A stretch of 64,000 nucleotides of DNA from Draconibacterium mangrovi (GTDB lineage Bacteria > Bacteroidota > Bacteroidia > Bacteroidales > Prolixibacteraceae): assembly GCF_010586825.1 (NCBI RefSeq), contig NZ_JAAAGB010000001.1, positions 558,001 through 622,000 of the forward strand. Direction: 5' to 3'. Positions 44,437 through 63,288 of this stretch are shown here, piece by piece (the stretch's first letter is position 1; each line of letters opens with the position of its first letter). A model generated the notes under the pieces. It was not told where the DNA came from. It worked only from the letters and a program-made list of their open reading frames with translations, and searched no databases. The position numbers were made by a program, and so were the translations under genes.

Positions 44437-44513
44437 TGGCTCCCCAGGTTGGACTTGAACCAACGACCTACGGATTAACAGTCCGCCGCTCTAACCAACT
44501 GAGCTACTGGGGA
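44437..44513 (-). tRNA. tRNA-Asn (anticodon GTT)
   Basis: The minus strand folds as a standard cloverleaf. The acceptor stem is TCCCCAG / CTGGGGA, the D-arm has AGCTCAGTTGGTTAGAGC, the anticodon loop is CTGTTAA with anticodon GTT, and the T-arm has GGTTCAAGTCC. Discriminator G and an encoded CCA end follow, for 77 bases including CCA. Confidence 0.97.
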
Positions 44514-48729: not shown

Positions 48730-51700
48730 ATGACACTTAGCCGAAGTTTACCTAAAATATGCTTCATTCTATTTGTATTTTTTGCCCTTTCAGTTCCTTT
48801 CAACGGAGAAGCTCAGGAAGTGCCGGAAATAGATACAACAGGCACATTACCCTATCCTTTTAAAGACCAGCCGGCTTTTGGATATACCGATCAGGATTCA
48901 GCGAAATTATACCTCAACAAGCCCAGCAACATAAAATACGAAATTGAGTACGACCCGATTACGGGACAATACGTGTTTTACGAAAAGGTGGGATCGCTGA
49001 ATTACCGTCTGCCTCAAAGTATGTCGCTCGACGATTACCTTGAATATGATTTCGACAAATCGATTCAGGATTACTGGCGAATGAGAACTCATCAGGAATC
49101 GGTTGATGCCCGCGGCGGACTGCTGCCCAAACTGACAATTGGCAGCGAGGCCTTTAACCGTATTTTCGGAGGAAACACCATCAATATTCAGCCGCAGGGT
49201 TATGTTGAAGTAAGTTTTGGTTACCAGGTAAATAAAACCGAAAACCCGTCGATTCCCGAACGCTTGCGAAAAGTTCCGACTTTCGATTTCGACGAGAAAA
49301 TTCAAATGAACGTTACCGGCCAGATCGGTACAAAAATGAATATGCGGGTGAACTACAACACCGAGGCTACTTTTGATTACGAAAACAAAATGAACCTGGA
49401 GTACACCGGCGACGAAGATGAAATTCTACAACGTATTGAAGCCGGTAATGTGTCGTTGCCCTTAAACGGTTCGTTAATAACCGGAGCCTCGAACCTGTTT
49501 GGTGTTAAAGCCGAAATGCAGTTCGGCAAACTTACACTTACCACACTGTTTTCGCAACACCGCGGCGAATCAAAAACCGTGGAAACCGAAGGAGGCGCCC
49601 AGGTGGCCACTTTCGATATGTCAGCAGCCAATTACGATGCCAACCGCCACTTTTTCCTGGCTCAATATTTCCGCGATCACTACAACGAATGGTTGCAAAG
49701 CACGGCTGTTCCGCGTTCGCCCATAACCATCAACAAAGTAGAAGTTTGGGTAACCAACAAATCAAACGATTTCGATGATTCGCGAAACATTCTGGCCTTT
49801 CAGGATTTAGCCGAACACGATCCGCATATTTACAATCCTATTTCGCAGTTTCAGCAAAATAACGGGCTGCCCTACCCTCAAAATATTTTCCCAAACAACG
49901 AGGCCAACGGCCTTTACAATGAAATGAACACCACCTACAACAGTGTTCGTCAGGTACAGAACATTACTAATGTAATGTCACAATTTGGAGAGAATTTTAA
50001 AGGCGGAACCGACTTTGAAAAAATTGAGCAGGCACGAAAACTGAACGATTCTGAATTTACCATCAACAAACAATTGGGATATATTTCGTTAAACAGTGCT
50101 TTAAATACCGATGAAGTTTTGGCAGTAGCCTTTAACTTTACCTACAACGGGCAAACTTTTCAGGTGGGTGAATTCTCAACCGATGGTATTGATGCGCCGC
50201 AAACACTTTTTATGAAGTTGTTGAAAGGCACCAATTTGTCGCCGGGAAAACCTACCTGGAACCTGATGATGAAAAACATTTATAACCTGAATGCCTACCA
50301 GTTAACCAGCGACGATTTTGAGTTGAATGTGGTATACCAAAACGACTCTACCGGAACCTACATCAATTACCTGCCCGCATCACGAATCCAGGGACATATT
50401 CTTTTGGAGGTAATGCGGCTGGATATGCTTAATTCGCAGCTCGACCCAACAAAAGACGGGGTGTTTGACTTTGTTGAAGGCATTACGGTTAACTCAAACT
50501 CGGGGCGTATTATTTTCCCAGTGGTTGAACCATTTGGCAGTCATCTGGCCGATTCCCTTCAAAATCCGTCCGACATTGAGCAATTCACTTTCCAAACGCT
50601 ATACGATTCTACCCAGGTAAAAGCAGAACAAGATGCCGAGCACAATAAATTCAGGCTTACCGGTAGTTACAAAGGTTCGTCAAGCTCCGATATTGCGCTG
50701 GGAACTTTAAACCTTACGCAAGGTTCGGTTACCGTTACCGCCGGTGGACAGGTACTTACCGAAAATGTGGATTATACGGTTGACTACACGTTGGGCCGGG
50801 TAAAAATTATTAACCAGGCACTATTGGAAGCCGGAACTCCGATTCAGGTAGCAACCGAAAGCGAAGACCTGTTTACCATGCAGCGCAAAACCCTGATGGG
50901 AACACATGCCAACTATGCTTTCTCCGATAATTTTAACATTGGAGCAACCATGTTGTGGATGAACGAACGCCCTTTAACTGAAAAAGTGGATTATGGTGAA
51001 GATCCGATTTCGAACATGATATACGGAATGGATGCCCGCTACAACACCGAAGCGCCTTTTATCACAAAAGCATTAGACGCACTGCCTTTTTATAGTACAA
51101 CTGCCACTTCATCAATTGATGTTGAGGCAGAATTTGCCCAACTGATTCCGGGAAGTTCAAAATCGATTAACGGAGCTGTTTATATTGATGATTTTGAAGC
51201 CACTAAAACAGCTATTGATATGCGAACCCGTTCAGCGTGGATGTTGGCAAGTACACCGCAGAACCAAAACAATATGTTTCCGGAAGCCAACCTGAGTAAC
51301 TCGCTCGAGTACGGTATGAACCGTGCAAAGTTGGCGTGGTACAATATAGATCCCTTGTTTTTGAGAAACAATTCGCTGACTCCCGATTATATAAAAGATG
51401 ACCGAAATTTACAATCGAACCACCTGGTGCGTGAGGTGTTCGAACAAGAGATATTTCCGGAACGTGAATTTACAACCGGCGAGCCAACAAACATTGCAGT
51501 ACTCGATCTGGCTTTTTATCCAACAGAGCGTGGTCCGTATAACTACGATACCGGTAACTCAAGTAATGCGGCAGGTGTAAACCCCGATGGTACTTTACGC
51601 GATCCGGAGTCGCGCTGGGGGGGTATTATGCGCGAAATACAAACCAGCGACTTTGAAAATGCCAACATCGAATACATCGAATTCTGGATGATGGATCCAT

Positions 51701-54700
51701 ACGTTGATCCGGATGATGATTGGGGCCCACTTGAACCGATGGAAAATGAAGGAGAACTGTATTTCAACCTTGGAGAAATTTCGGAAGATGTATTAAAAGA
51801 CTCGCGAAAATCTTTTGAGAACGGATTACCTACAACTGCCGAACCGACGAATGTCGACACCACCATTTGGGGACGCGTTTCAACACAACAATCGCTGGTA
51901 AATGCTTTTGATAACACAGTAAATTCGCGCGAGTATCAGGATATTGGTTTTGACGGACTGAACGATGACGATGAACAGTCTCACTTCCAGCAATACCTGC
52001 AGGAACTTGAACTAAAAGTAAATAACGCGGTTTACCTGAAAGCATTGGACGATCCATCCTCAGATAACTTCCACTATTTCCGCGGATCGGATTACGACAG
52101 GGATCAATTAGGCATTTTAGCACGTTACAAACAATACAACGGCCCCGAAGGTAACTCGCCAACTACGGAAATGTCACCGGAAAGCTATCCTACGTCGGCA
52201 ACCACACTGCCTGACATCGAAGACATTAACGATGACAATACGCTCAATGAATACGAACGCTATTTTCAATACAAGGTTAGTATTAGAAAAGAGGACATGG
52301 TTGTTGGACAAAATTACATTGTTGATAAAAGAAGCCGGCCTGTTCAGCTAAAAAATGGGAAAACAGGAGAAGCAGCGTGGTATCAGTTTAAGATTCCGGT
52401 AACTAAACCTGATGCAGTAATTGGCGGTATCAACGATTTTAGTTCCATTCGTTTTATGAGGATGTTCTTACACGGTTTCCAGGATTCTGCTGTTATGCGT
52501 TTTGCCACACTCGACCTTGTTCGTGCGGATTGGCGTCGTTACACCGGCGATATTTTGGAAAATGGCGGAACTCCTTCACCAAATGCGCAATTCGATATTT
52601 CGGCAGTAAGTATTGAGGAAAATTCAGGCCGCTCTCCGGTTAACTACATATTGCCTCCTGGAGTATCAAGGGTAATCGATCCGGCCAATCCACAGTTGCG
52701 CCAGTTAAACGAGCAGTCGATTGAAATGAAAGTAACCGAACTGGAGCCAGGCGACGCACGTGCGGCATACAAATCGTTGTACATGGATTTCAGAAGGTAC
52801 AAAACCCTGAAAATGGATGTGCATGCTGAAGAAATTGAAGAATACCCGCTGGAAGACGATGAACTGTATTTCTTTATTCGTTTGGGTTCAGATTATAATT
52901 ACAACTATTACGAATACGAAGTACCATTGACCTTAACTCCACCCAGTGATAAATATGATGGTAACGTTGAAAGCGACCGTTATATAGTCTGGCCCGATCA
53001 GAACCGGATCAATATTCCGCTCGAACTGTTTACCAACCTGAAACTGGAACGTAACGATGCGATGAGAGTCGAAGGCTCAGCCATTTCGATGCAGGATGTT
53101 TTTGAAGGTTCGCACAAGGGATGGAACGACGGTAAAAACCGGGTAAAAGTGAAAGGTAGCCCAAACCTGGGTAATGTTGAGGTAATGATGATGGGTGTTC
53201 GCAACAAAAGAGGCCAGGTAAACACCGGACCAAAGTCGGTGATTGTTTGGGCCAACGAATTACGCCTTACCGATTTTGATGATGAAGGCGGATGGGCGGC
53301 TAATGCACGTGTTTCAACACGTTTGGCCGATTTGGGTAGCGTGGTGGTTGCCGGACGAAAACGTACTGCGGGTTTCGGAAGTATTGATGAAAATATTAAC
53401 AACAGGATGATCGACGATCTGGATGAAATCGATGTGTCGGCATCAATCGACTGGGGACGCTTCTTCCCTGAACGGGCCGGTGTTCGTATTCCGATGTATT
53501 ATGGTTACTCCAACAGTACAGCAACACCAAAATATGATCCGGTAAATCCGGATATTGAGTTAAAAGAATCGCTGTCTCATGCACGAACCAGCAGCGAGAA
53601 GGATTCGATAAAAAATATATCGCAGGATGTAATTGAGCGAAAAAGTCTCAACTTTACCAACGTGAAAGTGGAGCCACAGCGCCAAAAAGAGAAAACACAT
53701 TTGTGGGATCCGGAAAACTTTGCTGTTACCTATTCGTACAATGAAACTTCGAAACGAAACATTACTACGGAGTACAACGTGAACAGAACGCACCGTTTTA
53801 TGTTCTCGTACAACTACAGCAGCCGGCCAAAATTGATTCAGCCGTTTAGCAAAGTTCAGTTGCTGCAAAAAGGGCCTTTAAAATTGATTGGCGACTTTAA
53901 CTTTTATCCGCTGCCAACACAAATTTCGTATCGTACCGACCTCTTCCGTAAGTACCACGAGCGCCAATCGAGAAATATTACCAATCCAAACCTGATTCTC
54001 CCGTCTACCTTCGACAAGGATTTCCTGTGGAACCGTTACCTCGATATCCGATATGATGTTACCCGTTCGTTGAAATTCGATTTCTCATCACGCGGAACTT
54101 CGCGAATTGATGAACCAGAAGGCCGGATCAATAAAAATGACGACGATTACGAATGGAAACGCGATTCGATTCTCACAAACCTGTGGGATTTAGGACGGCC
54201 AACAATATACAATCACAGTTTTAATGCCACTTACCAGGTGCCACTCCGAAGTATTCGGGCATTAAATTTTATGAGTGGAACAGTTCGCTACGCGGGAACT
54301 TACGAATGGGCTGCCGGATCGTTAACCAACGATGACATTAACGTTGGAAATATAATAACCAACTCGCGTAACCTTACTCTTACCGGTAACGCCAACTTCC
54401 AAACCCTGTTTAACAAAGTGCCTTATTTTAAAGAGGTTGACCAAAAATTCAGGCGAACAGGACGTGGGCGTGGCAGCCTCAACAGCCGGAGTACAAGAGG
54501 AGGTGCAAACCAGCAAACCGAACCACTGCAACGGAAACAGGAAGAAACATTTAGCCGAAGTGCAAAATTTACAGCCGACCAGGGCCAACAATTTGCCCAC
54601 AAGCTAAATACCAAAAAAGTAAAAGTTCTGGTTACTGATGTGGACGGGAAAACTGTTCCCGGACGAACAAATATAATAGATGCTAATACCATCGAGTTTG

Positions 54701-56220
54701 TTCCATCGGTTGATGTGCAGCAAGCAATGCTTACCGTTACAGGAAAACGAGGCGATCAGTCATTCATGAAAGACATGTTGGACCTGACCACAAGAATGGT
54801 GATTGGAGTGCGGACCTTCACTGTAAACTACAGCAAAAACGGAGGTACTGTTTTGCCGGGATTCCTGCCTGAACCAACGTTGTTTGGAACCGGTAATTTT
54901 AGTGGCGATCCGGAATGGGGAACACAAACACTCGATCCGAAGCTGGCTCCGGGACTTCCATTCCTGTTTGGCTGGCAAGACCGAGATTTTGCAATAAAAG
55001 CTGCAGAGAACGGCTGGCTGACCATCGACTCAACGTTAAATCAACCGTTCCAGATTATGGAAAACGAGCGGATTAATCTGCGTACATTGTGGGAACCGCT
55101 GCCCGATTTGCGAATTGACATCAATGCCAACCGCTCGATATCGAAAAATATCACTGAGTTCTACAACTACGATACAAACTCCGGTAGTTTTGTTGCCAAC
55201 AGTTATTCCGAAAGCGGAAACTTTAGTATGTCGACTCTGACATTGGGAACTGCCTTCTTTAAAATAGGAAAAGAAGAAGTATCCAGCTCGGATGCTTTCG
55301 AAAAAATGAAAGAGAACCGCCTGACTATAGCCAGACGTCTGGCTCAACAGCGTGGCACAAGTGCAGGTTATGATCCGAATGCTCAGAACGAAAACTATCC
55401 GGGATACCCCGATGGTTACGGGCCAAACTCGGTGGAAGTTCTTGTTCCGGCATTCCTGGCGGCATATCAAAATAAAGATCCGGAAAGTGTGTCTTTGGGC
55501 TTGTTCCCGTCATTAAAATATATCCGTCCGAACTGGAGCATTCGTTACGAAGGAATGGTATCGCGTATTCCGGGGCTGAATAAAGTAATGCGTTCGATGA
55601 ATTTCCAACATACCTATCGCTCAACCTACAACGTTGGGTCGTATGCCACCAACCTGAATTTTATTGCTGCAGAAGATGGCTACACCATGGTGCGCGACCT
55701 GGCCGATAACTTTGTTCCTGCATACGATTTTAATACGGTAAGTATCGTTGAAGCTTTCAATCCGCTGATCAATATCGACATCATGTGGCTTAGCGACCTC
55801 ACTACACGCGGAGAGATCAAACGTGCTCGTAACCTGAACCTGTCGTTATCGAATAACCAGCTTACAGAGATACTGAGCAACGAATATACTTTTGGATTAG
55901 GTTACCGATTTACACGAATGGATTTGATCATTAAAACAAAAAATTCGCAACAGGCTTACTCTAACGATTTAAATGTTCGTGCTGATATTTCGTACCGGAA
56001 AACAAAAACACTTTTACGCCAGTTGGACGATGACAGCAACCAGATTACTGCAGGACAAGGTAACTTTACCTTAAAAACCTATGCCGACTACCGCTTGAGC
56101 GATAAATTTGAAATGCGTGTGTATTACGATCGTATTATTAACGATCCGTTTACCTCGCTATCGTACCGTACAACCAATGCGAATTTTGGGGTAAGTTTCC
56201 GTTTCACACTGGCTAACTAA
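48730..56220 (+). CDS. sprA: SprA (Sov), outer-membrane translocon of type IX secretion/gliding
   Basis: Giant outer-membrane protein of 2496 residues that forms the export channel of the type IX secretion system and, where present, serves gliding motility. A signal peptide (1-28, ending GEAQ) precedes a periplasmic stretch and the SprA N-terminal repeats (about 50-550; SIPERLRKVPTFDFDEKIQMNVTGQIG-like region). The remainder is a 36-strand barrel with long loops, ending GVSFRFTLAN. The length fits the family (about 2400-2500). It implies that this organism secretes T9SS cargo, although no C-terminal sorting domain protein was noticed in the window. Confidence 0.95.
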   Translation: MTLSRSLPKICFILFVFFALSVPFNGEAQEVPEIDTTGTLPYPFKDQPAFGYTDQDSAKLYLNKPSNIKYEIEYDPITGQYVFYEKVGSLNYRLPQSMSLDDYLEYDFDKSIQDYWRMRTHQESVDARGGLLPKLTIGSEAFNRIFGGNTINIQPQGYVEVSFGYQVNKTENPSIPERLRKVPTFDFDEKIQMNVTGQIGTKMNMRVNYNTEATFDYENKMNLEYTGDEDEILQRIEAGNVSLPLNGSLITGASNLFGVKAEMQFGKLTLTTLFSQHRGESKTVETEGGAQVATFDMSAANYDANRHFFLAQYFRDHYNEWLQSTAVPRSPITINKVEVWVTNKSNDFDDSRNILAFQDLAEHDPHIYNPISQFQQNNGLPYPQNIFPNNEANGLYNEMNTTYNSVRQVQNITNVMSQFGENFKGGTDFEKIEQARKLNDSEFTINKQLGYISLNSALNTDEVLAVAFNFTYNGQTFQVGEFSTDGIDAPQTLFMKLLKGTNLSPGKPTWNLMMKNIYNLNAYQLTSDDFELNVVYQNDSTGTYINYLPASRIQGHILLEVMRLDMLNSQLDPTKDGVFDFVEGITVNSNSGRIIFPVVEPFGSHLADSLQNPSDIEQFTFQTLYDSTQVKAEQDAEHNKFRLTGSYKGSSSSDIALGTLNLTQGSVTVTAGGQVLTENVDYTVDYTLGRVKIINQALLEAGTPIQVATESEDLFTMQRKTLMGTHANYAFSDNFNIGATMLWMNERPLTEKVDYGEDPISNMIYGMDARYNTEAPFITKALDALPFYSTTATSSIDVEAEFAQLIPGSSKSINGAVYIDDFEATKTAIDMRTRSAWMLASTPQNQNNMFPEANLSNSLEYGMNRAKLAWYNIDPLFLRNNSLTPDYIKDDRNLQSNHLVREVFEQEIFPEREFTTGEPTNIAVLDLAFYPTERGPYNYDTGNSSNAAGVNPDGTLRDPESRWGGIMREIQTSDFENANIEYIEFWMMDPYVDPDDDWGPLEPMENEGELYFNLGEISEDVLKDSRKSFENGLPTTAEPTNVDTTIWGRVSTQQSLVNAFDNTVNSREYQDIGFDGLNDDDEQSHFQQYLQELELKVNNAVYLKALDDPSSDNFHYFRGSDYDRDQLGILARYKQYNGPEGNSPTTEMSPESYPTSATTLPDIEDINDDNTLNEYERYFQYKVSIRKEDMVVGQNYIVDKRSRPVQLKNGKTGEAAWYQFKIPVTKPDAVIGGINDFSSIRFMRMFLHGFQDSAVMRFATLDLVRADWRRYTGDILENGGTPSPNAQFDISAVSIEENSGRSPVNYILPPGVSRVIDPANPQLRQLNEQSIEMKVTELEPGDARAAYKSLYMDFRRYKTLKMDVHAEEIEEYPLEDDELYFFIRLGSDYNYNYYEYEVPLTLTPPSDKYDGNVESDRYIVWPDQNRINIPLELFTNLKLERNDAMRVEGSAISMQDVFEGSHKGWNDGKNRVKVKGSPNLGNVEVMMMGVRNKRGQVNTGPKSVIVWANELRLTDFDDEGGWAANARVSTRLADLGSVVVAGRKRTAGFGSIDENINNRMIDDLDEIDVSASIDWGRFFPERAGVRIPMYYGYSNSTATPKYDPVNPDIELKESLSHARTSSEKDSIKNISQDVIERKSLNFTNVKVEPQRQKEKTHLWDPENFAVTYSYNETSKRNITTEYNVNRTHRFMFSYNYSSRPKLIQPFSKVQLLQKGPLKLIGDFNFYPLPTQISYRTDLFRKYHERQSRNITNPNLILPSTFDKDFLWNRYLDIRYDVTRSLKFDFSSRGTSRIDEPEGRINKNDDDYEWKRDSILTNLWDLGRPTIYNHSFNATYQVPLRSIRALNFMSGTVRYAGTYEWAAGSLTNDDINVGNIITNSRNLTLTGNANFQTLFNKVPYFKEVDQKFRRTGRGRGSLNSRSTRGGANQQTEPLQRKQEETFSRSAKFTADQGQQFAHKLNTKKVKVLVTDVDGKTVPGRTNIIDANTIEFVPSVDVQQAMLTVTGKRGDQSFMKDMLDLTTRMVIGVRTFTVNYSKNGGTVLPGFLPEPTLFGTGNFSGDPEWGTQTLDPKLAPGLPFLFGWQDRDFAIKAAENGWLTIDSTLNQPFQIMENERINLRTLWEPLPDLRIDINANRSISKNITEFYNYDTNSGSFVANSYSESGNFSMSTLTLGTAFFKIGKEEVSSSDAFEKMKENRLTIARRLAQQRGTSAGYDPNAQNENYPGYPDGYGPNSVEVLVPAFLAAYQNKDPESVSLGLFPSLKYIRPNWSIRYEGMVSRIPGLNKVMRSMNFQHTYRSTYNVGSYATNLNFIAAEDGYTMVRDLADNFVPAYDFNTVSIVEAFNPLINIDIMWLSDLTTRGEIKRARNLNLSLSNNQLTEILSNEYTFGLGYRFTRMDLIIKTKNSQQAYSNDLNVRADISYRKTKTLLRQLDDDSNQITAGQGNFTLKTYADYRLSDKFEMRVYYDRIINDPFTSLSYRTTNANFGVSFRFTLAN

Positions 56221-56325
56221 TTGTTAATCCAACTTTATTTGAGAAATAGTTTTTTGAAGCTTCTGCCAACAATATTTTGATATTTCAAAAAAAACGTTTT
56301 TCTTGCAGAAGATTAAAATTAAAAA

Positions 56326-56376
56326 ATGCAAAAAATAAATACAATATGGCTTCCGTGGTGGGGTCTTCTTACGTAA
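56326..56376 (+). CDS. trpL: trp leader peptide 1 (16 residues, three Trp)
   Basis: Short frame MQKINTIWLPWWGLLT with Trp at positions 8, 11 and 12, too short for routine gene calling. The Trp codons lie at 56347 and 56356-56361. The region containing the first Trp codon, CAATATGGC (56342-56350), pairs perfectly with GCCATATTG (56391-56399). GTTAGGAGT (56377-56385), right after the stop codon, can pair with GCTTCTAAC (56425-56433), which would disrupt the terminator at 56422. A stalled ribosome would therefore allow read-through when Trp-tRNA is scarce. Confidence 0.85.
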   Translation: MQKINTIWLPWWGLLT

Positions 56377-56421
56377 GTTAGGAGTTAAGAGCCATATTGC
56401 TATTTTTAAAGATATGACAGG

Positions 56422-56449
56422 CCTGCTTCTAACAAAAGCAGGTTTTTTT
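56422..56449 (+). terminator. trp attenuator terminator 1
   Basis: CCTGCTT / AAGCAGG stem with a seven-base loop, followed by seven T. The 5' arm overlaps the antiterminator partner of leader 1. Confidence 0.88.
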
Positions 56450-56468
56450 GTTTTATAGATAAATTATT

Positions 56469-56525
56469 ATGAGAACAAACAATAACATTTGGTGGTGGCG
56501 TAACAACTTTTTACAAATATCGTGA
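56469..56525 (+). CDS. trpL: trp leader peptide 2 (18 residues, WWW)
   Basis: Second short frame, MRTNNNIWWWRNNFLQIS, with three consecutive Trp codons at 56490-56498. TGGCGTA overlapping the last Trp codon can pair with TACGTCA (56534-56540). A second intrinsic terminator follows at 56557. An antiterminator pairing was not found by eye. It shares no obvious sequence with leader 1 apart from the Trp cluster, so it may have arisen separately. Confidence 0.85.
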   Translation: MRTNNNIWWWRNNFLQIS

Positions 56526-56556
56526 AGAGAGGATACGTCATTGCATAAACTTAAAG

Positions 56557-56588
56557 CGGCTCATCGGATTTCACGGTGAGCCGTTTTT
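56557..56588 (+). terminator. trp attenuator terminator 2
   Basis: CGGCTCATCG / CGGTGAGCCG stem (one G-U pair) with a seven-base loop, followed by TTTTT; about 120 bases before trpE. Confidence 0.85.
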
Positions 56589-56610
56589 AGTTTAAACCAG
56601 AATATAACAA

Positions 56611-56670
56611 CACCCCTCCTGACCTCCCCGAAGGGGAGGAAATCTCCCCCTTCGGGGGATAAAGGGGGTC
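56611..56670. repeat. GC-rich palindromic repeat before trpE
   Basis: Nested hairpins CCTCCCC-gaa-GGGGAGG and TCCCCC-ttc-GGGGGA, enclosed by an outer ACCCC / GGGGT pair. Its ends (CACCCCT and AAAGGGGGT) resemble those of the repeat at 60544. It looks like a REP-type mobile palindrome and could also affect trpE translation, since the start codon is 36 bases downstream. Confidence 0.7.
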
Positions 56671-56705
56671 AAAAAAATAAACAAAGAACAAAACATAAAA
56701 ACAAA

Positions 56706-58115
56706 ATGGAAAAACTCAATTTTAAACCTGTCGTACGTAAAATACTTGCCGACACCGTAACTCCGGTTAGCATTTATTTACGACTTCGCACGCTTTATCC
56801 TAAGTCGATATTGCTGGAAAGCTCCGATTACCACGGAGTTGAAAACGCTTACTCATTTATTGCTTTTAACCCAATTGCCAATTTTAAAGTCACAAACGGC
56901 GAGGTTGGCATCGATTTGCCGGGCAGAGCGCAAGAAAACTTTAGCCTTTCTCCCGAAAAGAAATTGCATGATGAGCTGGACAAGTTCTTCAAAACATTTA
57001 ATGTTGATTCGGATGAAATTGAATTGCCGGCCAACGGTTTATTTGGCTACCTGAATTTCGATGCCATTCAACATTTCGAAAGCATTCGTTTTTCGTCACC
57101 AAAAACCGAAGAATATCAGACGCCGGAAGTACACTACAGCTTTTATAAATATGTAGTGGCCATCGATCACCACAAAAACCAAATCCACATTGTAGAAAAC
57201 TTGTTGGAAGGCGAAGAGTCGCAAATGGATTACGTTCATCATTTGTTGGTGAACCTCAACTTTTCAACGGCAAGTTTCGATGTACGCGGCGAAGAAAAAT
57301 CGAATATCACTGATGAAGAATACATGCACATGGTAACCAAAGGCAAAGAGCACTGCTACCGTGGCGATGTTTTCCAAATCGTTTTGAGCCGCCAGTTCTC
57401 GCAGGAATTTGTTGGCGACGATTTTAATGTATATCGCGCACTTCGTTCAATCAATCCATCGCCGTACCTGTTCTACTTCGACTACGGCACTTACAGTATT
57501 TTCGGATCGAGTCCGGAAGCTGAAATCAGAATAAAAGACAACAAAGCATACATTCACCCCATTGCCGGAACGTTTAAACGAACCGGAAATGATGATCAGG
57601 ATCGTGAGCTGGCTGAAAAGCTGAGCAAAGACCCCAAAGAAAATGCTGAGCACGTGATGTTGGTAGATCTTGCCCGTAACGATCTGAGCAGAAATGCCAA
57701 TAATGTAATTGTGGAAACCTACCGCGAGGTACAATTCTTCTCGCATGTGATTCACCTGGTTTCGCAGGTTTCGGGAGAAATTACCAGCGATACCAACCTG
57801 ATAAAAGTACTGGGAGAAACGTTCCCGGCCGGAACACTTTCGGGTGCACCAAAGTATAAAGCCATGGAACTGATCGACAAATACGAAAACCAGAACCGGG
57901 GTTATTACGGCGGTTGTATTGGTTATCTTGGTTTTGATAATTCGGTGAACCATGCGATTATGATTCGCTCGTTTTTGAGCAAAGACAAAAAGCTGTTTTA
58001 TCAGGCGGGTGCAGGTATTGTCGCCGACTCGCAGGAAGAGAGTGAACTGCAGGAAGTGAATAACAAACTGGCTGCCTTGAAAAAGGCTATTGAAATGGCT
58101 AAAGGAATTAATTAA
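56706..58115 (+). CDS. trpE: Anthranilate synthase component I
   Basis: Converts chorismate and ammonia to anthranilate, the first step of tryptophan synthesis. The 469-residue protein has the Trp feedback-inhibition motif LLESS near residue 37. The chorismate-binding domain (about 200-460) contains QIVLSRQFSQ, INPSPYLFYFDYG, GSSPEAEIR, HPIAGTFKRTG, ENAEHVMLVDLARNDL and FPAGTLSGAPK. First structural gene of the trpEGDCFBA operon; trpG begins 12 bases later. Its transcription should depend on read-through of two attenuators. Confidence 0.97.
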   Translation: MEKLNFKPVVRKILADTVTPVSIYLRLRTLYPKSILLESSDYHGVENAYSFIAFNPIANFKVTNGEVGIDLPGRAQENFSLSPEKKLHDELDKFFKTFNVDSDEIELPANGLFGYLNFDAIQHFESIRFSSPKTEEYQTPEVHYSFYKYVVAIDHHKNQIHIVENLLEGEESQMDYVHHLLVNLNFSTASFDVRGEEKSNITDEEYMHMVTKGKEHCYRGDVFQIVLSRQFSQEFVGDDFNVYRALRSINPSPYLFYFDYGTYSIFGSSPEAEIRIKDNKAYIHPIAGTFKRTGNDDQDRELAEKLSKDPKENAEHVMLVDLARNDLSRNANNVIVETYREVQFFSHVIHLVSQVSGEITSDTNLIKVLGETFPAGTLSGAPKYKAMELIDKYENQNRGYYGGCIGYLGFDNSVNHAIMIRSFLSKDKKLFYQAGAGIVADSQEESELQEVNNKLAALKKAIEMAKGIN

Positions 58116-58127
58116 AAACTTGAAACG

Positions 58128-58703
58128 ATGAAGATATTAGTTATCGATAATTACGACTCATTTACCTACAACCTGGTACATGCCATAAAAAAGATTTCAG
58201 GCCAGCCGGTTGATGTATTTCGCAACGACCAGATTGCGTTGGAAGAGATTGACAAATACGACAAAATCGTTCTTTCTCCGGGTCCCGGAATTCCTGAAGA
58301 AGCAGGTCTTTTACTCGACATTATCAAAGCTTATGCACCAAAGAAAAGTATGCTGGGCGTTTGTTTGGGGCATCAGGCGATTGGAGAAGCTTTTGGGGGC
58401 AAACTACATAACATGAATCGTGTGCTGCACGGAATTGCCACCCCCGTAAAACAAACCGGAATTAAATCGCCGTTGTTCGAAGGGCTACCCGAATCATTCG
58501 ATGTGGGCCGTTACCACTCGTGGATCGTTCAGGATGAACAACTGCCCGAATGTTTTGAAGTTACCAGCTACGACGAAGATGGACTGGTAATGTCGATGCA
58601 GCACAAAGAATACGATGTACAGAGTGTGCAGTTCCACCCGGAATCGGTACTTACCCCGCTGGGCGAAAAAATGATCGAAAACTGGTTGAATCCGAACAAG
58701 TAG
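58128..58703 (+). CDS. trpG: Anthranilate synthase component II (glutamine amidotransferase)
   Basis: Class I glutamine amidotransferase that supplies ammonia to TrpE. The 191-residue protein has the catalytic triad Cys79 (GVCLGHQ), His170 and Glu172 (QFHPES), and the N-terminal LVIDNYDSFTYN motif. The same domain can serve para-aminobenzoate synthesis in some bacteria; here it lies inside the trp operon. Spacing to trpD is 33 bases. Confidence 0.97.
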   Translation: MKILVIDNYDSFTYNLVHAIKKISGQPVDVFRNDQIALEEIDKYDKIVLSPGPGIPEEAGLLLDIIKAYAPKKSMLGVCLGHQAIGEAFGGKLHNMNRVLHGIATPVKQTGIKSPLFEGLPESFDVGRYHSWIVQDEQLPECFEVTSYDEDGLVMSMQHKEYDVQSVQFHPESVLTPLGEKMIENWLNPNK

Positions 58704-58736
58704 TAAATCAAATTCAAAAAACTCAACTGCTTAAAA

Positions 58737-59732
58737 ATGAAAGAAACATTACAATACCTATTTGAAGGTAACACCCTCACGCGCGAAGAAGCAAAAGCTG
58801 CCTTAACCGGCGTTGGGAAAGGCCTTTATTCTGAAGCCGAATTTGCCGCATTTCTAACCGTTTTTAAAATGCGTCCGTTGCAGTCGGAAGAACTGGGAGG
58901 TTTTCGCGATGCCATGGCGGAACTCAGCAAAAAAGTTGATCTGTCAGACTACAACGCAATCGATATTGTGGGCACCGGCGGCGACGGCAAAAACACGTTC
59001 AACATCTCTACACTCTCGTGTTTTGTTGTTGCTGGTGCTGGTGTGAATGTCACCAAACATGGCAATTATGCCGCCACTTCAAACAGCGGCTCATCAAACG
59101 TTTTGGAATTTCTGGGCTACGAATTCAGTAACGAAACAGACAAACTAAAAAGCGACCTGGAAAAAGGAGGATTTTGCTTTTTACATGCTCCGCTTTTTCA
59201 TCCGGCAATGAAACACATTGCTCCGGTACGCAGGGCCTTAAAAGTGCCAACTTTCTTTAATATTCTTGGGCCGATGATCAACCCCTCGGAACCAAAATAC
59301 CAGCTACTTGGAGTGAATAACAGTTTAAATTTCGATTACTACAAGAACGTGTATAAAACACTGAATGTTAACTTTGCCATTGTGAACAGTATTGATGGCT
59401 ACGACGAAATTTCGCTGACTGCCGACACACACTTTGCCACAAAATCAGAAGAAAAACTGGTGTCACCGTCAGAATTTGGATTGCCACAGGTTGCTCCTGA
59501 AAAACTTTTTGGTGGAGAATCGGTGGAAGACGCTGCAAAAATATTTATCGATGTTCTGAAAGGTAACGGAACAACAGAGCAAACAAATGTTGTTCTTGCA
59601 AACGCGGCCGTTGCATTGCAGGTTGTTTTTTCGGATAAAACATTAACGGAATGTGTTGAAATGGCGCGCGAATCTTTACTCAGCGGAAATGCGTTGAAAA
59701 AGTTGGAAGCAGTTACAAACAAGTCCTTTTAA
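58737..59732 (+). CDS. trpD: Anthranilate phosphoribosyltransferase
   Basis: Transfers the phosphoribosyl group of PRPP to anthranilate. The 331-residue protein has the PRPP loop GTGGDGKNTFNIST near residue 80, the KHGNYAATSNSGSSNVLE segment near 109, and RRALKVPTFFNILGPMINP near 165. The helical N-terminal domain starts at residue 1 without an extension. trpC starts 20 bases later. Confidence 0.97.
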   Translation: MKETLQYLFEGNTLTREEAKAALTGVGKGLYSEAEFAAFLTVFKMRPLQSEELGGFRDAMAELSKKVDLSDYNAIDIVGTGGDGKNTFNISTLSCFVVAGAGVNVTKHGNYAATSNSGSSNVLEFLGYEFSNETDKLKSDLEKGGFCFLHAPLFHPAMKHIAPVRRALKVPTFFNILGPMINPSEPKYQLLGVNNSLNFDYYKNVYKTLNVNFAIVNSIDGYDEISLTADTHFATKSEEKLVSPSEFGLPQVAPEKLFGGESVEDAAKIFIDVLKGNGTTEQTNVVLANAAVALQVVFSDKTLTECVEMARESLLSGNALKKLEAVTNKSF

Positions 59733-59752
59733 GACAGAGCAAATAAAAGACA

Positions 59753-60541
59753 ATGAATATTCTTGATAAAATAGTAGCAACAAAAACACAAGAAGTAGCT
59801 GCCCAGAAAAAAGTGGTTAGCATTGAGCAGCTTGAAAAATACCCGGCTTTTGCGAGAAAATGTAATTCGCTAAAGGAAAACCTGCTTAAAGAAGATGCTT
59901 CAGGTATTATTGCAGAATTTAAGCAAAAATCGCCATCAAAAGGAGAGATTAACTTTTCAGCAAAAGTGGAAGAAGTAACTACAGCATACAACGCCGCAGG
60001 CGCTTCGTGTCTTTCGGTCCTCACAGATTTTGAATACTTTGGTGGCACATTGGCGAACCTGGCAAAAGCACGTGAAGCCAATCCCGATATCCCGATTTTG
60101 CGTAAGGATTTTATGATCGATACTTACCAGATTGTGGAAGCTAAAGCTTATGGCGCGGATGTGATCCTTTTAATTGCCGCGTGTCTTTCAAAAGAAAAGG
60201 CACTGGAACTGGCAAAAAAAGCCAAAGAATTGGGATTGGATGTGTTGATGGAAATCCACAATGCCGAAGAGTTGGAGATCGTTAACGACTATGTTGATGT
60301 TGTGGGCGTAAACAACCGTAACCTGAAAACTTTTGAGGTGAGCGTTGAAACTTCGGTGGAGCTTTCGCAACTTATTCCGGCGAAATTTGTAAAAATATCG
60401 GAAAGTGGTTTGGCAGGAGCTGCCGAGATCAAATACCTGAAAGAGCATGGTTTTAAAGGCTTTCTTATTGGTGAGACCTTTATGAAAACCGACGATCCCG
60501 GTGTGGCTTGTAAAAAACTGATTGAAGAGATTAGAGATTAA
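59753..60541 (+). CDS. trpC: Indole-3-glycerol phosphate synthase
   Basis: Closes the indole ring from carboxyphenylamino-deoxyribulose phosphate. The 262-residue TIM barrel has the catalytic EFKQKSPSKG motif near residue 61, SVLTDFEYFGG near 94, RKDFMID near 117, GVNNRNL near 186 and SESG near 218. It is not fused to TrpF as in E. coli; a palindromic repeat separates the two genes. Confidence 0.97.
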   Translation: MNILDKIVATKTQEVAAQKKVVSIEQLEKYPAFARKCNSLKENLLKEDASGIIAEFKQKSPSKGEINFSAKVEEVTTAYNAAGASCLSVLTDFEYFGGTLANLAKAREANPDIPILRKDFMIDTYQIVEAKAYGADVILLIAACLSKEKALELAKKAKELGLDVLMEIHNAEELEIVNDYVDVVGVNNRNLKTFEVSVETSVELSQLIPAKFVKISESGLAGAAEIKYLKEHGFKGFLIGETFMKTDDPGVACKKLIEEIRD

Positions 60542-60543
60542 AA

Positions 60544-60599
60544 TCACCCCTTTAATCCCTCAAGGGGGCAATTATCCCCTTGAGGGATTAAAGGGGTGA
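60544..60599. repeat. Large palindromic repeat between trpC and trpF
   Basis: Perfect inverted arms of 24 bases (60544-60567 and 60576-60599) that start TCACCCCTTTAATCCC and enclose an eight-base centre. It fills nearly the whole 76-bp gap between two co-transcribed genes. No T-tract follows, so it is unlikely to terminate strongly; it could stabilise the upstream mRNA. Related in layout to 56611-56670. Confidence 0.85.
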
Positions 60600-60617
60600 A
60601 ACTTAACAAGTGAATAG

Positions 60618-61247
60618 ATGACAAAAAACCTAAAAATAAAAGTTTGCGGGATGAAATTCACGCAAAATCGTGAACAGGTGGAAGCGCTTGGCGTTGACCT
60701 GCTAGGCTATATTTTCTATGGCCCTTCGAAACGATTTGTTGGTGATACACCCGATGCCGGACTCTTTCAATCTGACAAACCCAAAGTGGGTGTTTTTGTA
60801 AACGAGAATGCATTTGAAATTCTGGGTTTGGCAAAGAACTTTGGTTTCGAATACATTCAATTGCACGGCAAAGAAAATCCAAAAACCTGCGGATTATTAA
60901 AAAATCAGGGTCTAAAAGTACTAAAGGCCTTTCCTATGGATGATGATTTTAAATTTGCGACAACAGCAGCCTATGAGGAAAACGTGGATTATTTCTTATT
61001 CGATACCAAAACCAAAGAGCATGGTGGTTCGGGTAAAAAATTCAATTGGCAGATACTGGAAAACTACACCGGGAATACACCCTTTTTTCTCAGTGGCGGA
61101 ATTGGCCCTGACGACGCTGCAGAAATTAAAGAACTAAATCATCCGATGCTTGCCGGATTAGATCTGAATAGTGGGTTTGAGGATGAACCCGGATTAAAAA
61201 ACATTGAAAAACTAAAACATTTTATTGCGCAAATGAAAGCAGAATAA
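60618..61247 (+). CDS. trpF: Phosphoribosylanthranilate isomerase
   Basis: Isomerises phosphoribosylanthranilate before the TrpC step. The 209-residue TIM barrel has the catalytic Cys in KVCGMKF near residue 10, GYIFYGPSKRFV near 30, VGVFVNE near 56, IQLHGKE near 77, the catalytic Asp in FLFDTKTKEHGGSGKKFNW near 127, and FLSGGIGPDDA near 156. Single-domain form, located between trpC and trpB. Confidence 0.96.
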   Translation: MTKNLKIKVCGMKFTQNREQVEALGVDLLGYIFYGPSKRFVGDTPDAGLFQSDKPKVGVFVNENAFEILGLAKNFGFEYIQLHGKENPKTCGLLKNQGLKVLKAFPMDDDFKFATTAAYEENVDYFLFDTKTKEHGGSGKKFNWQILENYTGNTPFFLSGGIGPDDAAEIKELNHPMLAGLDLNSGFEDEPGLKNIEKLKHFIAQMKAE

Positions 61248-61281
61248 ATGCTGTTTTTTTTGCGCCAAAGCAATACAGATT

Positions 61282-62463
61282 ATGAAATATCAAGTAGATG
61301 AAAAAGGATATTACGGCGAATTTGGCGGGGCATGGATACCCGAAATGATGTTCACCAATGTTGATGAACTCAAGCGCCGCTACCTTGAAATTATAGAATC
61401 AGATTCGTTCAAAAAAGAATTCGATCAGCTATTAAAAGATTATGTGGGGCGTCCGTCACCGCTGTATTATGCCAGCCGCCTTTCGGAACATTACGGCAGC
61501 AGAATCTACCTCAAAAGGGAGGATTTGAACCATACCGGATCGCATAAACTGAATAACACCATCGGGCAAATTCTATTGGCACAACAACTGGGCAAAACCC
61601 GCATTATTGCCGAAACGGGTGCCGGACAGCACGGCGTGGCAACTGCAACTGTTTGCGCCCTGAAAGGTATTAAATGTATCGTTTACATGGGAGCACTGGA
61701 TGTTTCACGCCAGGCACCAAACGTAAAAAAAATGAAAATGCTCGGTGCCGAAGTAATTCCTGTGCACAGCGGTAACAAAACACTTAAAGATGCCACCAAC
61801 GAAGCCATGCGCGACTGGATCAACAATCCGGAAGATACGCATTACATTATCGGTTCAGTGGTTGGGCCACACCCCTACCCCGACATGGTTGCTCGTTTCC
61901 AATCGGTTATCAGTGCCGAGATGAAAAAACAACTGCTGGAACAAACCGGATCGGAATTCCCGACACGTATTTTGGCATGTGTAGGCGGAGGAAGTAATGC
62001 CGCCGGAGCTTTTTATCATTTCCTGGATGACGAGCAGGTGGAACTAATCGGAGTGGAAGCTGCCGGAAAAGGAGTTGACACCAACGAAACTGCAGCAACT
62101 TTAACTGTTGGAACTCCCGGCGTCTTACACTCGAGCCGAACTGTATTAATGCAAAATGAGGACGGACAAATTACCGAACCATATTCCATCTCTGCCGGAC
62201 TGGATTACCCGGGAATAGGGCCGTTACATGCGCACCTTTTTAAAACCGGTCGAGCAAAGTTTCTGGCTGCCACCGACGAGGAAGTTTTACAGGCAGTGTT
62301 GCTGCTAACACAAAAAGAAGGCATTATTCCGGCACTGGAATCAGCTCATGCGCTTGCGGCACTGGATAAAATAAAAATGAATCCTGACGATGTGAATGTG
62401 ATTAACCTTTCGGGCAGTGGAAACAAGGATATGGAAACTTACCTGGATTATTTTGGATATTAA
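61282..62463 (+). CDS. trpB: Tryptophan synthase beta chain
   Basis: PLP enzyme joining indole and serine to give tryptophan, in an alpha2-beta2 complex with TrpA. The 393-residue protein has the Schiff-base Lys89 in HTGSHKLNN, the ETGAGQHGVA carboxylate loop, the phosphate-binding CVGGGSNAAG near residue 231, and the C-terminal LSGSGNKDMETY. It has the standard TrpB1 type and length. trpA starts 42 bases later. Confidence 0.98.
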   Translation: MKYQVDEKGYYGEFGGAWIPEMMFTNVDELKRRYLEIIESDSFKKEFDQLLKDYVGRPSPLYYASRLSEHYGSRIYLKREDLNHTGSHKLNNTIGQILLAQQLGKTRIIAETGAGQHGVATATVCALKGIKCIVYMGALDVSRQAPNVKKMKMLGAEVIPVHSGNKTLKDATNEAMRDWINNPEDTHYIIGSVVGPHPYPDMVARFQSVISAEMKKQLLEQTGSEFPTRILACVGGGSNAAGAFYHFLDDEQVELIGVEAAGKGVDTNETAATLTVGTPGVLHSSRTVLMQNEDGQITEPYSISAGLDYPGIGPLHAHLFKTGRAKFLAATDEEVLQAVLLLTQKEGIIPALESAHALAALDKIKMNPDDVNVINLSGSGNKDMETYLDYFGY

Positions 62464-62505
62464 CCTCGGACTTCCGACTTCGGGCTTCCGACTATTTCAA
62501 TAAAA

Positions 62506-63288
62506 ATGAACAACAGAATCAATCAACTTTTCGAAAGAAAAAAAGAAAACATACTCTCGGTATATTTTACTGCCGGGTTCCCCAATCTGAACGATACCGT
62601 TGAAATTATTCAGCAGCTGGAAAAAAATGGCGTCGACCTCATCGAAATTGGTATGCCTTTTTCCGATCCTACAGCTGACGGTCCAACCATTCAGCGCACC
62701 AGCGAAATTGCCTTAAAAAACGGCATGTCAATCAAAGTACTTTTCGAGCAATTAAAAACCATTCGTGAATCGGTTTCTATACCACTGGTTTTAATGGGAT
62801 ACTTAAATCCTGTATATCAATATGGCGTAGAAAAGTTTTGCCAAAAGTGCAACGAAATTGGCATAGACGGAACAATTCTGCCCGACCTTCCGTTGGATGA
62901 GTTTGAAGCAAACTACAAAACTATATTTGAACAAAACAACCTGCACAATATTTTGCTGATTACGCCACAAACGTCGGAAGCACGCATTCGACAGATCGAT
63001 GATGCCAGCGAAGGATTTATTTACATGGTGTCATCGTCGTCGACAACAGGTGCCGGCAAAAAAGTGGAAGATTTCCATGCGGACTATTTTGAGCGCATTC
63101 AGGCAATGAATCTCAAAAATCCGCGCCTTATCGGGTTTGGAATTTCGGATAATGCCACATTTACAAATGCCTGTAAATATGCCAGCGGAGCCATTATCGG
63201 AAGTGCCTTTGTAAGTTCATTCAGCGAGGAAGTAAAAACTGCCGATTCGGTTGCCCAATTTGTAAAAAACATGCTAACGGCCGACTAA
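62506..63288 (+). CDS. trpA: Tryptophan synthase alpha chain
   Basis: Cleaves indole-3-glycerol phosphate to indole, which passes through the tunnel to TrpB. The 260-residue TIM barrel has the catalytic Glu and Asp in LIEIGMPFSDPTADGPTIQ near residues 46-60, LMGYLNPVYQYG near 96, DGTILPDLPLDE near 124, and the phosphate-binding YMVSSSSTTG near 170. Last gene of the trp operon; no strong hairpin terminator was seen directly behind it. Confidence 0.97.
   Translation: MNNRINQLFERKKENILSVYFTAGFPNLNDTVEIIQQLEKNGVDLIEIGMPFSDPTADGPTIQRTSEIALKNGMSIKVLFEQLKTIRESVSIPLVLMGYLNPVYQYGVEKFCQKCNEIGIDGTILPDLPLDEFEANYKTIFEQNNLHNILLITPQTSEARIRQIDDASEGFIYMVSSSSTTGAGKKVEDFHADYFERIQAMNLKNPRLIGFGISDNATFTNACKYASGAIIGSAFVSSFSEEVKTADSVAQFVKNMLTAD

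Follow-up and report, generated by a model that had tools for sequence, protein, structure and literature searches.

In Escherichia coli, the trp operon is preceded by the leader trpL, in which an antiterminator competes with a terminator and pairs with the 5′ arm of the latter. Trp attenuation, a textbook example of an RNA switch, is usually drawn as one such unit per operon. Here we analyzed the leader of the trp operon of Draconibacterium mangrovi, a member of the Prolixibacteraceae (Bacteroidota), in a 64,000-nucleotide (nt) stretch of its genome (RefSeq assembly GCF_010586825.1, contig NZ_JAAAGB010000001.1, positions 558,001 to 622,000), hereafter the window. This leader holds two Trp-rich leader peptide open reading frames (ORFs) in series, each followed by its own intrinsic terminator. 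On the evidence gathered here, all of it computational (sequence, folding, and comparison), we consider it quite likely that the leader consists of two ribosome-mediated transcription attenuators in series, both reading the supply of Trp-tRNA, and that unit 1 is an addition of the Prolixibacteraceae.

Tandem regulatory units have been described for other leaders. The Salmonella mgtCBR leader carries tandem attenuators with two short ORFs that respond to different signals, ATP and proline, and the same paper cites the tandem riboswitches of Bacillus clausii metE, which directly sense S-adenosylmethionine and B12 (PMC3641672). The trp leader studied here likewise has two signal-reading units; mgtCBR, however, lacks two anticipated intrinsic terminators, unlike metE, whereas both trp units carry codons for one amino acid and an intrinsic terminator each. 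In the rimP leader, a second terminator lies in tandem and NusA is the proposed sensor; it shares the two terminators, but no leader peptide is mentioned in the excerpts available (PMC2965389). In the trp attenuators of actinobacteria, a Trp leader peptide containing 2-3 UGG codons and a terminator likewise lie upstream of the trp operon, and the words "tandem" and "two leader" are absent from the accessible text (PMC1262725). Closest in lineage is the Bacteroid-trp leader RNA (RF01692), tabulated by Weinberg in 2010 (PMC2864571) and mentioned for F. psychrophilum (PMC6414381); the available portions of these two papers mention no tandem arrangement. Tandem attenuators for two different signals are known from mgtCBR, and two trp leader peptides in series are undescribed among the matches listed. 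In the open PubMed Central literature, with subscription journals mostly outside its scope, none of the matches listed dealt with trp leader peptides in tandem or with a natural riboswitch for tryptophan.

Two Trp-rich leader peptides, each with a terminator, precede the trp operon

The interval from sprA (48730-56220) to trpE (56706) contains two short Trp-rich ORFs, with a hairpin and a T-run after each. Pfam domains identified trpE, trpG, trpD, trpC, trpF, trpB, and trpA downstream of the leader and sprA upstream of it, and the TrpE protein shares 99% identity with its counterpart in Draconibacterium sediminis and 97% with the one in D. orientale. The features of the locus are as follows.

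56276..56305, +, promoter-like site TTTG-N18-TTTTCTTG upstream of unit 1, after the Bacteroidota-type consensus
56326..56376, +, leader peptide ORF 1, MQKINTIWLPWWGLLT*, with ATG at 56326, stop codon TAA at 56374-56376, and Trp at residues 8, 11, and 12
56333..56411, +, core RNA of unit 1 (covariance model R1), with outer stem CAATATGGC (56342-56350) / GCCATATTG (56391-56399), an inner hairpin, and asymmetric internal loop TTCCGTGGTGGGG
56377..56385, +, antiterminator half of unit 1, GTTAGGAGT, with a predicted duplex to its own target of -11.3 kcal/mol in D. mangrovi
56419..56448, +, intrinsic terminator 1 with T-run, recognized by pattern scan, folding, and relatives
56425..56433, +, antiterminator partner of unit 1, GCTTCTAAC, inside terminator 1
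56469..56525, +, leader peptide ORF 2, MRTNNNIWWWRNNFLQIS*, with ATG at 56469, stop codon TGA at 56523-56525, and WWW
56521..56529, +, antiterminator half of unit 2, CGTGAAGAG, overlapping the stop codon, with a predicted own-target duplex of -12.0 kcal/mol; also part of a predicted inner hairpin
56556..56588, +, intrinsic terminator 2 with T-run, recognized by folding, with a stem at about 56556-56584 followed by TTTTTAG
56569..56577, +, antiterminator partner of unit 2, TTTCACGGT, in the loop and upper 3′ arm of terminator 2
56706..63288, +, trpE, trpG, trpD, trpC, trpF, trpB, and trpA, by Pfam domains

An earlier sequence-only reading of this locus had placed both Trp leader ORFs and their Trp codons as listed, and our reanalysis confirmed them. 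The same was true of the alternative pairings it had described for leader 1, that is, CAATATGGC with GCCATATTG and GTTAGGAGT with GCTTCTAAC. Its further claim of an intrinsic terminator with a T-run after each leader also held: terminator 1 was found by folding and by pattern scan, which listed it at 56419-56445, and terminator 2, absent from the pattern-scan list of the 2-kb stretch, was recognized by folding. Because one terminator-pattern site per 2 kb is at chance level (shuffles, mean 1.8), the case does not rest on the pattern match of terminator 1. Compared with shuffled sequences, the fold of unit 1 had a z-score of -2.93 (1 of 200 shuffles equally stable) and that of unit 2 a z-score of -7.66 (0 of 200).

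Rfam comparison placed unit 1 near known Trp leaders. Bacteroid-trp, found in Bacteroidota upstream of trp genes and by its Rfam name a tryptophan peptide leader, scored 27.8 bits on unit 1 against a gathering score of 49 and gave no listed match on unit 2; the sole pass among the 20 loci scanned was a class-level locus with a single WWW leader (L276; 71.3 bits). The proteobacterial Trp_leader family (RF00513), which likewise has UGG codons in a short ORF and an antiterminator opposed to a terminator, scored 25.2 bits on unit 1 against a gathering score of 41, and there are two units here. Unit 1 is predicted to work like a leader-peptide attenuator, yet it lies outside both families.

Unit 1 is an extra unit of the Prolixibacteraceae

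The distribution of the two units was examined in 140 Prolixibacteraceae genomes, 127 of which had a TrpE match at E 1e-80. Three of these (G070, G079, and G123) were left out because the match was partial or too close to a contig end, leaving 124 upstream regions. A unit was counted as a Trp-rich ORF starting with ATG plus its own terminator, under a relaxed terminator criterion and within 1300 nt upstream of trpE. Two units were found in 81 regions, one in 29, and none in 11, and 3 regions were too short. The sequence-only reading had proposed conservation in relatives as a check on the tandem arrangement, and the two-unit majority, in which both short frames and hairpins are kept, bears it out; conservation across 81 of 124 loci also rules out a chance origin of the two units. 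A regular expression detected the unit-1 core in 75 of the 81 two-unit loci; among the other 6, three (G044, G047, and G050) carry it by model R1. The 11 regions without units include every one of the 8 g3 genomes (a single genus); five of these have a Trp-rich leader with a terminator 1.4 to 1.7 kb upstream, so gene order in this genus may differ.

Outside the family, single units prevailed. Of 149 genomes sampled from the class, 49 had TrpE at E 1e-70, and the best 29 loci besides that of D. mangrovi were taken. Among the 26 of these with enough upstream DNA, none had two units, 16 had one, and 10 had none. We also inspected 42 named loci and kept 38, none of them from the sampled family genomes (L073, L088, and L110 were dropped as family members and L079 for want of upstream DNA). 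One unit was found in 33; four had none by the rule, each still with a Trp-rich ORF, and one (L076) appeared double. Both ORFs of L076 share a single terminator, so that no credible two-unit locus was seen among the 38. By these comparisons, unit 2 is the one that looks like the lone trp leader found in other Bacteroidota, and unit 1 is the extra one, seen only in Prolixibacteraceae. A recent duplication of one unit was considered and provisionally rejected, as peptides, terminators, and stems appear dissimilar between the units by eye.

The same counts bear on whether the locus is a T-box or another tRNA-binding leader instead of a leader-peptide attenuator. In favor of such a leader, UGG and UGGU motifs sit in an internal loop of a long stem. 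However, no T-box match reached the gathering score in the window or in 20 loci, none appeared up to E 10 in 56200-56720, and predicted Trp ORFs with ATG, stop codon, and terminator occur two per locus in 81 of 124 loci. We regard a T-box or other tRNA-binding leader as extremely improbable.

The units seem to have been gained, lost, and separated one by one, to judge from a few loci. In G136, a unit-1-like switch is kept and unit 2 was undetected. In L041 (292-916) and L051 (2104-2728), unit 1 is separated from unit 2 by two ORFs, one for a nucleotidyltransferase and one HepT-like, an arrangement like that of MNT/HepT toxin-antitoxin pairs (assigned by Pfam for L051 and by likeness for L041); therefore, unit 1 there also precedes added genes. 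A nucleotidyltransferase-like ORF occupies the same place in L050 (2088-2414), where no intact HepT-like ORF of 80 codons was found and the end of such a gene was recognizable by eye. In another locus (L184, genome G100), the Trp codons of both leaders appear to be fused in a single ORF of 45 codons, which extends from within the unit-1 stem as far as the leader 2 WWW (MANSWW...NIWWW...).

Antiterminators and terminators co-vary in both units

If each unit is a switch, the antiterminator half should match its own terminator better than it matches terminators from other genera. For unit 1, the mean duplex energy was -9.94 kcal/mol with the own terminator versus -7.37 kcal/mol with those of other genera (67 unique pairs), and 0 of 5000 permutations equaled this. 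For unit 2, the values were -8.86 and -6.87 kcal/mol over 117 sequences (84 from the family and 33 from elsewhere), and the 33 sequences from outside the family genomes alone gave -10.17 versus -7.89 kcal/mol, again with 0 of 5000 permutations equal in either set. Some duplex energies of unit 2 are weak because the fixed region searched misses the antiterminator half of late-ending leaders. By eye, the antiterminator letters of unit 2 vary by lineage (CCGTG/CACGG, GGAAGTT/AACTTCC, and AGAGTTGA/TCAACTCT), while pairing is kept. In contrast to the 5′-arm pairing of E. coli, the antiterminator of unit 2 and of single leaders such as L071, L101, and L111 co-varies with a target that lies in the loop of the terminator and the upper part of its 3′ arm.

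Folding was then modeled with the ribosome and all upstream RNA masked, the mask ending 13 nt beyond the first A-site base. Placing the ribosome at the last Trp codon instead of the stop codon raised the number of antiterminator pairs by at least three in 79 of 80 unit 1 folds and 108 of 109 unit 2 folds, the latter including single-unit genomes and a few doubtful ORFs; the reverse was seen in none. Unit 1 therefore combines repeated Trp codons before a trp operon with a mutually exclusive antiterminator and terminator that co-vary over relatives, and unit 2 combines a short Trp ORF with a co-varying antiterminator and terminator, as expected of leader-peptide attenuators.

Several observations weigh against this interpretation. 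Masking at the stop codon hides more RNA, so part of the contrast between Trp and stop positions is built in. When spacers were shuffled (40 shuffles each), no more than 14 of 23 cases for unit 1 and 21 of 41 for unit 2 had antiterminator pairing at the Trp stall above that of at least 95% of the shuffles; in D. mangrovi itself, unit 1 was not above its shuffles (a fraction of 0.23 reached it), and the fraction for unit 2 was 0.03. Folds without a ribosome still held at least five antiterminator pairs in 34% (unit 1) and 44% (unit 2) of cases (1.9 and 3.2 pairs in D. mangrovi), and therefore basal termination without translation is not general in the fold model. At full-length equilibrium, the terminator is usually favored (mean stem probability with the ribosome at the last Trp codon, 0.78 for unit 1 and 0.96 for unit 2), so that antiterminators would need to form first. 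The permutation statistics ignore the relatedness of the genomes, and some rows are wrong: G128 entered the unit 1 duplex and fold tests with a unit 2 terminator, and G133, G135, and G136 are unit-1-like rows in the unit 2 duplex and shuffle tests.

A probable single transcript with two proposed successive tests for Trp supply

Whether the two units share a transcript was approached through promoter-like sites, scored as TTTG-N(17-23)-TAnnTTTG-like motifs after the Bacteroidota-type consensus. Of 74 tandem genomes, 62 scored at least 8 of 10 upstream of unit 1 and 13 did so between the units, the median stretch searched being 80 nt upstream versus 50 nt between units, a bias that favors the upstream side. 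The mean best score was 7.97 versus 6.15 for shuffled sequences, and D. mangrovi scored 8 upstream of unit 1 and 7 between the units. Both units thus most likely lie on one transcript. An inverted repeat, CTTCTGC/GCAGAAG (56260-56311), flanks the promoter-like site of unit 1, and its left arm is not kept in L017.

The sequence-only reading had also proposed that the units are Trp-stalling attenuators acting in series. This remains the best-supported reading, favored by conservation of the ORFs and terminators, by the co-change of antiterminators with terminators, and by a promoter-like site mainly upstream of unit 1. The ORFs, terminators, co-variation, and conservation are features of the sequences themselves; from them we infer the following course of stalling and read-through on one transcript. 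With ample Trp, the ribosome at the leader stop codon would cover the antiterminator half, the terminator would form, and RNA polymerase would stop. With scarce Trp, the ribosome would stall on the UGG codons, leaving the half at or beyond the stop codon free to pair with the terminator sequence, and polymerase would continue. Polymerase would face this test twice, first at the W and WW codons with terminator 1 and then at WWW with terminator 2, so that the read-through left when Trp is in excess would roughly equal one leak rate multiplied by the other. Most of the sampled family members keep two units for the same signal, and the family, with single-unit relatives as controls, could serve as a natural test of whether a response becomes sharper or wider when attenuators are stacked.

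The unit-1 core is constrained as an RNA

The core of unit 1 was aligned from 46 representatives, giving covariance model R1 of 77 positions. Its outer stem comprises 14 pairs, with standard pairs in 95.5% of cells and a covariation score above all 500 shuffles. Two-sided changes occurred in 19 cells, versus 4.8 in shuffles, and 18 of the 19 fell in the outer AAATA part (the outer five pairs). The 9-pair CAATATGGC stem is nearly invariant, with a single compensatory change (G084), and the pair-type count of the outer stem was not above shuffles (242 of 500 reached it). The inner hairpin varies in sequence, and the internal loop is asymmetric. A DNA operator of fixed spacing was rejected, as the distance between the two 9-nt arms ranges from 33 to 43 nt (a spurious G068 match left out) and most outer-stem changes keep pairing; the shuffle-level pair-type count and the lone compensatory change in the CAATATGGC stem speak against this rejection. 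A pairing of CCGUG in the unit-1 loop with CACGG of terminator 2 was likewise rejected, for g8, g9, and g17 have no CCGUG in the loop, yet by eye the CACG target of unit 2 is kept.

The core appears confined to the family. Model R1 matched 101 of 140 family genomes, with the best match upstream of trpE on the same contig in 97 and on a contig without trpE seen in 4 (G013, G021, G059, and G097); weak second matches (at most 34 bits) comprised one other place in G052 and opposite-strand readings at the same site. No credible R1 locus beyond the family was found in an order sample of 295 genomes, whose 3 matches were two family members and G691 (33.5 bits, within a 195-codon ORF). An exact core pattern occurred in 1 of 295 genomes of a class sample, the window's own genome, and once per genome in 35 of 37 genus genomes.

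Seventeen genomes of 6 genera (G052; G072; G073-G076; G100; four of g15; and six of g21) carry the core upstream of a single W-leader unit that has its terminator, and no terminator of the core's own was found by script. In 15 of them, the Trp frame lacks an open ATG, GTG, or TTG; G128 has an ATG 30 codons upstream, and G076 a TTG 10 codons upstream. Some of the 17 carry ATGs in other frames (g15; in G073 and G100, a stem-internal ATG is in frame with two Trp codons, by eye). A border case is G057, in which the ATG is present and terminator 1 is too weak under either rule. Translation of the Trp codons has thus likely been lost in core-only genomes. In a TrpE tree of 71 rows, with state labels set by hand (G135 labeled tandem though the unit count gave one) and one row, L232_G138, seemingly on the wrong strand and meaningless in placement (branch length 10), the core-only state needs 3 changes; therefore, the switch parts disappeared or arose on more than one occasion.

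These genomes raise the question of whether unit 2 alone regulates the operon, unit 1 being a relic or serving another role, such as a 5′ stabilizing or pausing RNA, with an incidental ORF. The 17 genomes fit such a role, as does the failure of the D. mangrovi unit 1 antiterminator to exceed its shuffles. Nevertheless, terminator 1 and its antiterminator half co-vary in tandem genomes, and the ATG, Trp frame, stop codon, and terminator of unit 1 are kept together across genera, which makes this explanation decidedly unlikely.

Another explanation would do without an RNA function apart from translation: leader 1 may still be translated from AUA or AUU in the lineages without AUG. AUA AAU ACA AUA UGG is indeed kept in 12 of 12 genomes of the main ATG-less clade (G052, G072, four of g15, and six of g21). 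However, the Trp-frame stop codon varies in position, and in 6 of the 12 (G052, G072, G103, G104, G126, and G130) the frame stays open across the 3′ arm. The first UGG and the UGGUGG have come to lie in different frames in G073 and G100, and no terminator is left to control. AUA starts are very weak in E. coli. Such translation is therefore highly improbable.

Conservation within the main ATG-less clade is concentrated in the core. Over 45 between-genus pairs of its 12 genomes, core parts are 95% and 92% identical, versus 60% just upstream; identity is 56% in the hairpin loop, 69% up to the leader 2 Trp codons, and 80% at the start of unit 2. Fourfold sites of trpE agree in 38% between genera (10 of the 12 genomes). 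Among 56 genomes outside this clade that have the ATG and the peptide NTIWLPWWGL, the codons are CCG in 56 of 56 and GGT in 56 of 56, and CTT is changed to CTG in 4. The unit-1 core on which this attenuator would be built is, by these measures, constrained as an RNA more than attenuation requires.

This constraint invites another explanation, in which the Trp codons of the first leader are secondary and the core RNA senses a ligand or a protein, either acting directly on terminator 1 or modulating leader 2. The frozen loop UUCCGUGGUGGGG, with its CCG and GGT codons set against the 38% at trpE fourfold sites, and the identity of core parts between genera favor it. In contrast, the Trp codons are in frame wherever ATG and terminator are present at the loci listed, the nearest cis-regulatory Rfam likenesses are the Trp leader families, below cut-off, the core is not known to bind a ligand or protein, and no output switch was found in terminator-less genomes; we rate this explanation as fairly unlikely. 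A combined scheme, likewise fairly unlikely, would make the core a new regulatory RNA specific to the Prolixibacteraceae. Its conserved loop (UUCCGUGGUGGGG or UUUGGUGGGG), closed by a helix on either side, would bind a regulator or sense a metabolite of the tryptophan pathway. The core would be joined to the leader peptide and terminator as a dual sensor here and would still act by itself beside leader 2 in lineages without those parts. That the core outlives leader peptide and terminator points either to a hidden RNA sensor or to a requirement of attenuation that has gone unrecognized, e.g., the synchronizing of ribosome and polymerase.

Other features of the region

GC-rich hairpin repeats (CCCCGAAGGGG and CCCCCTTCGGGGG) lie at 56608-56668, between unit 2 and trpE; they occur in some close relatives (L033) and are absent in L007. 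In L132, the stretch separating unit 2 from trpE matches the Rfam family Acido-Lenti-1. The sole Rfam match at gathering score within the window is a tRNA gene on the minus strand (44440-44513).
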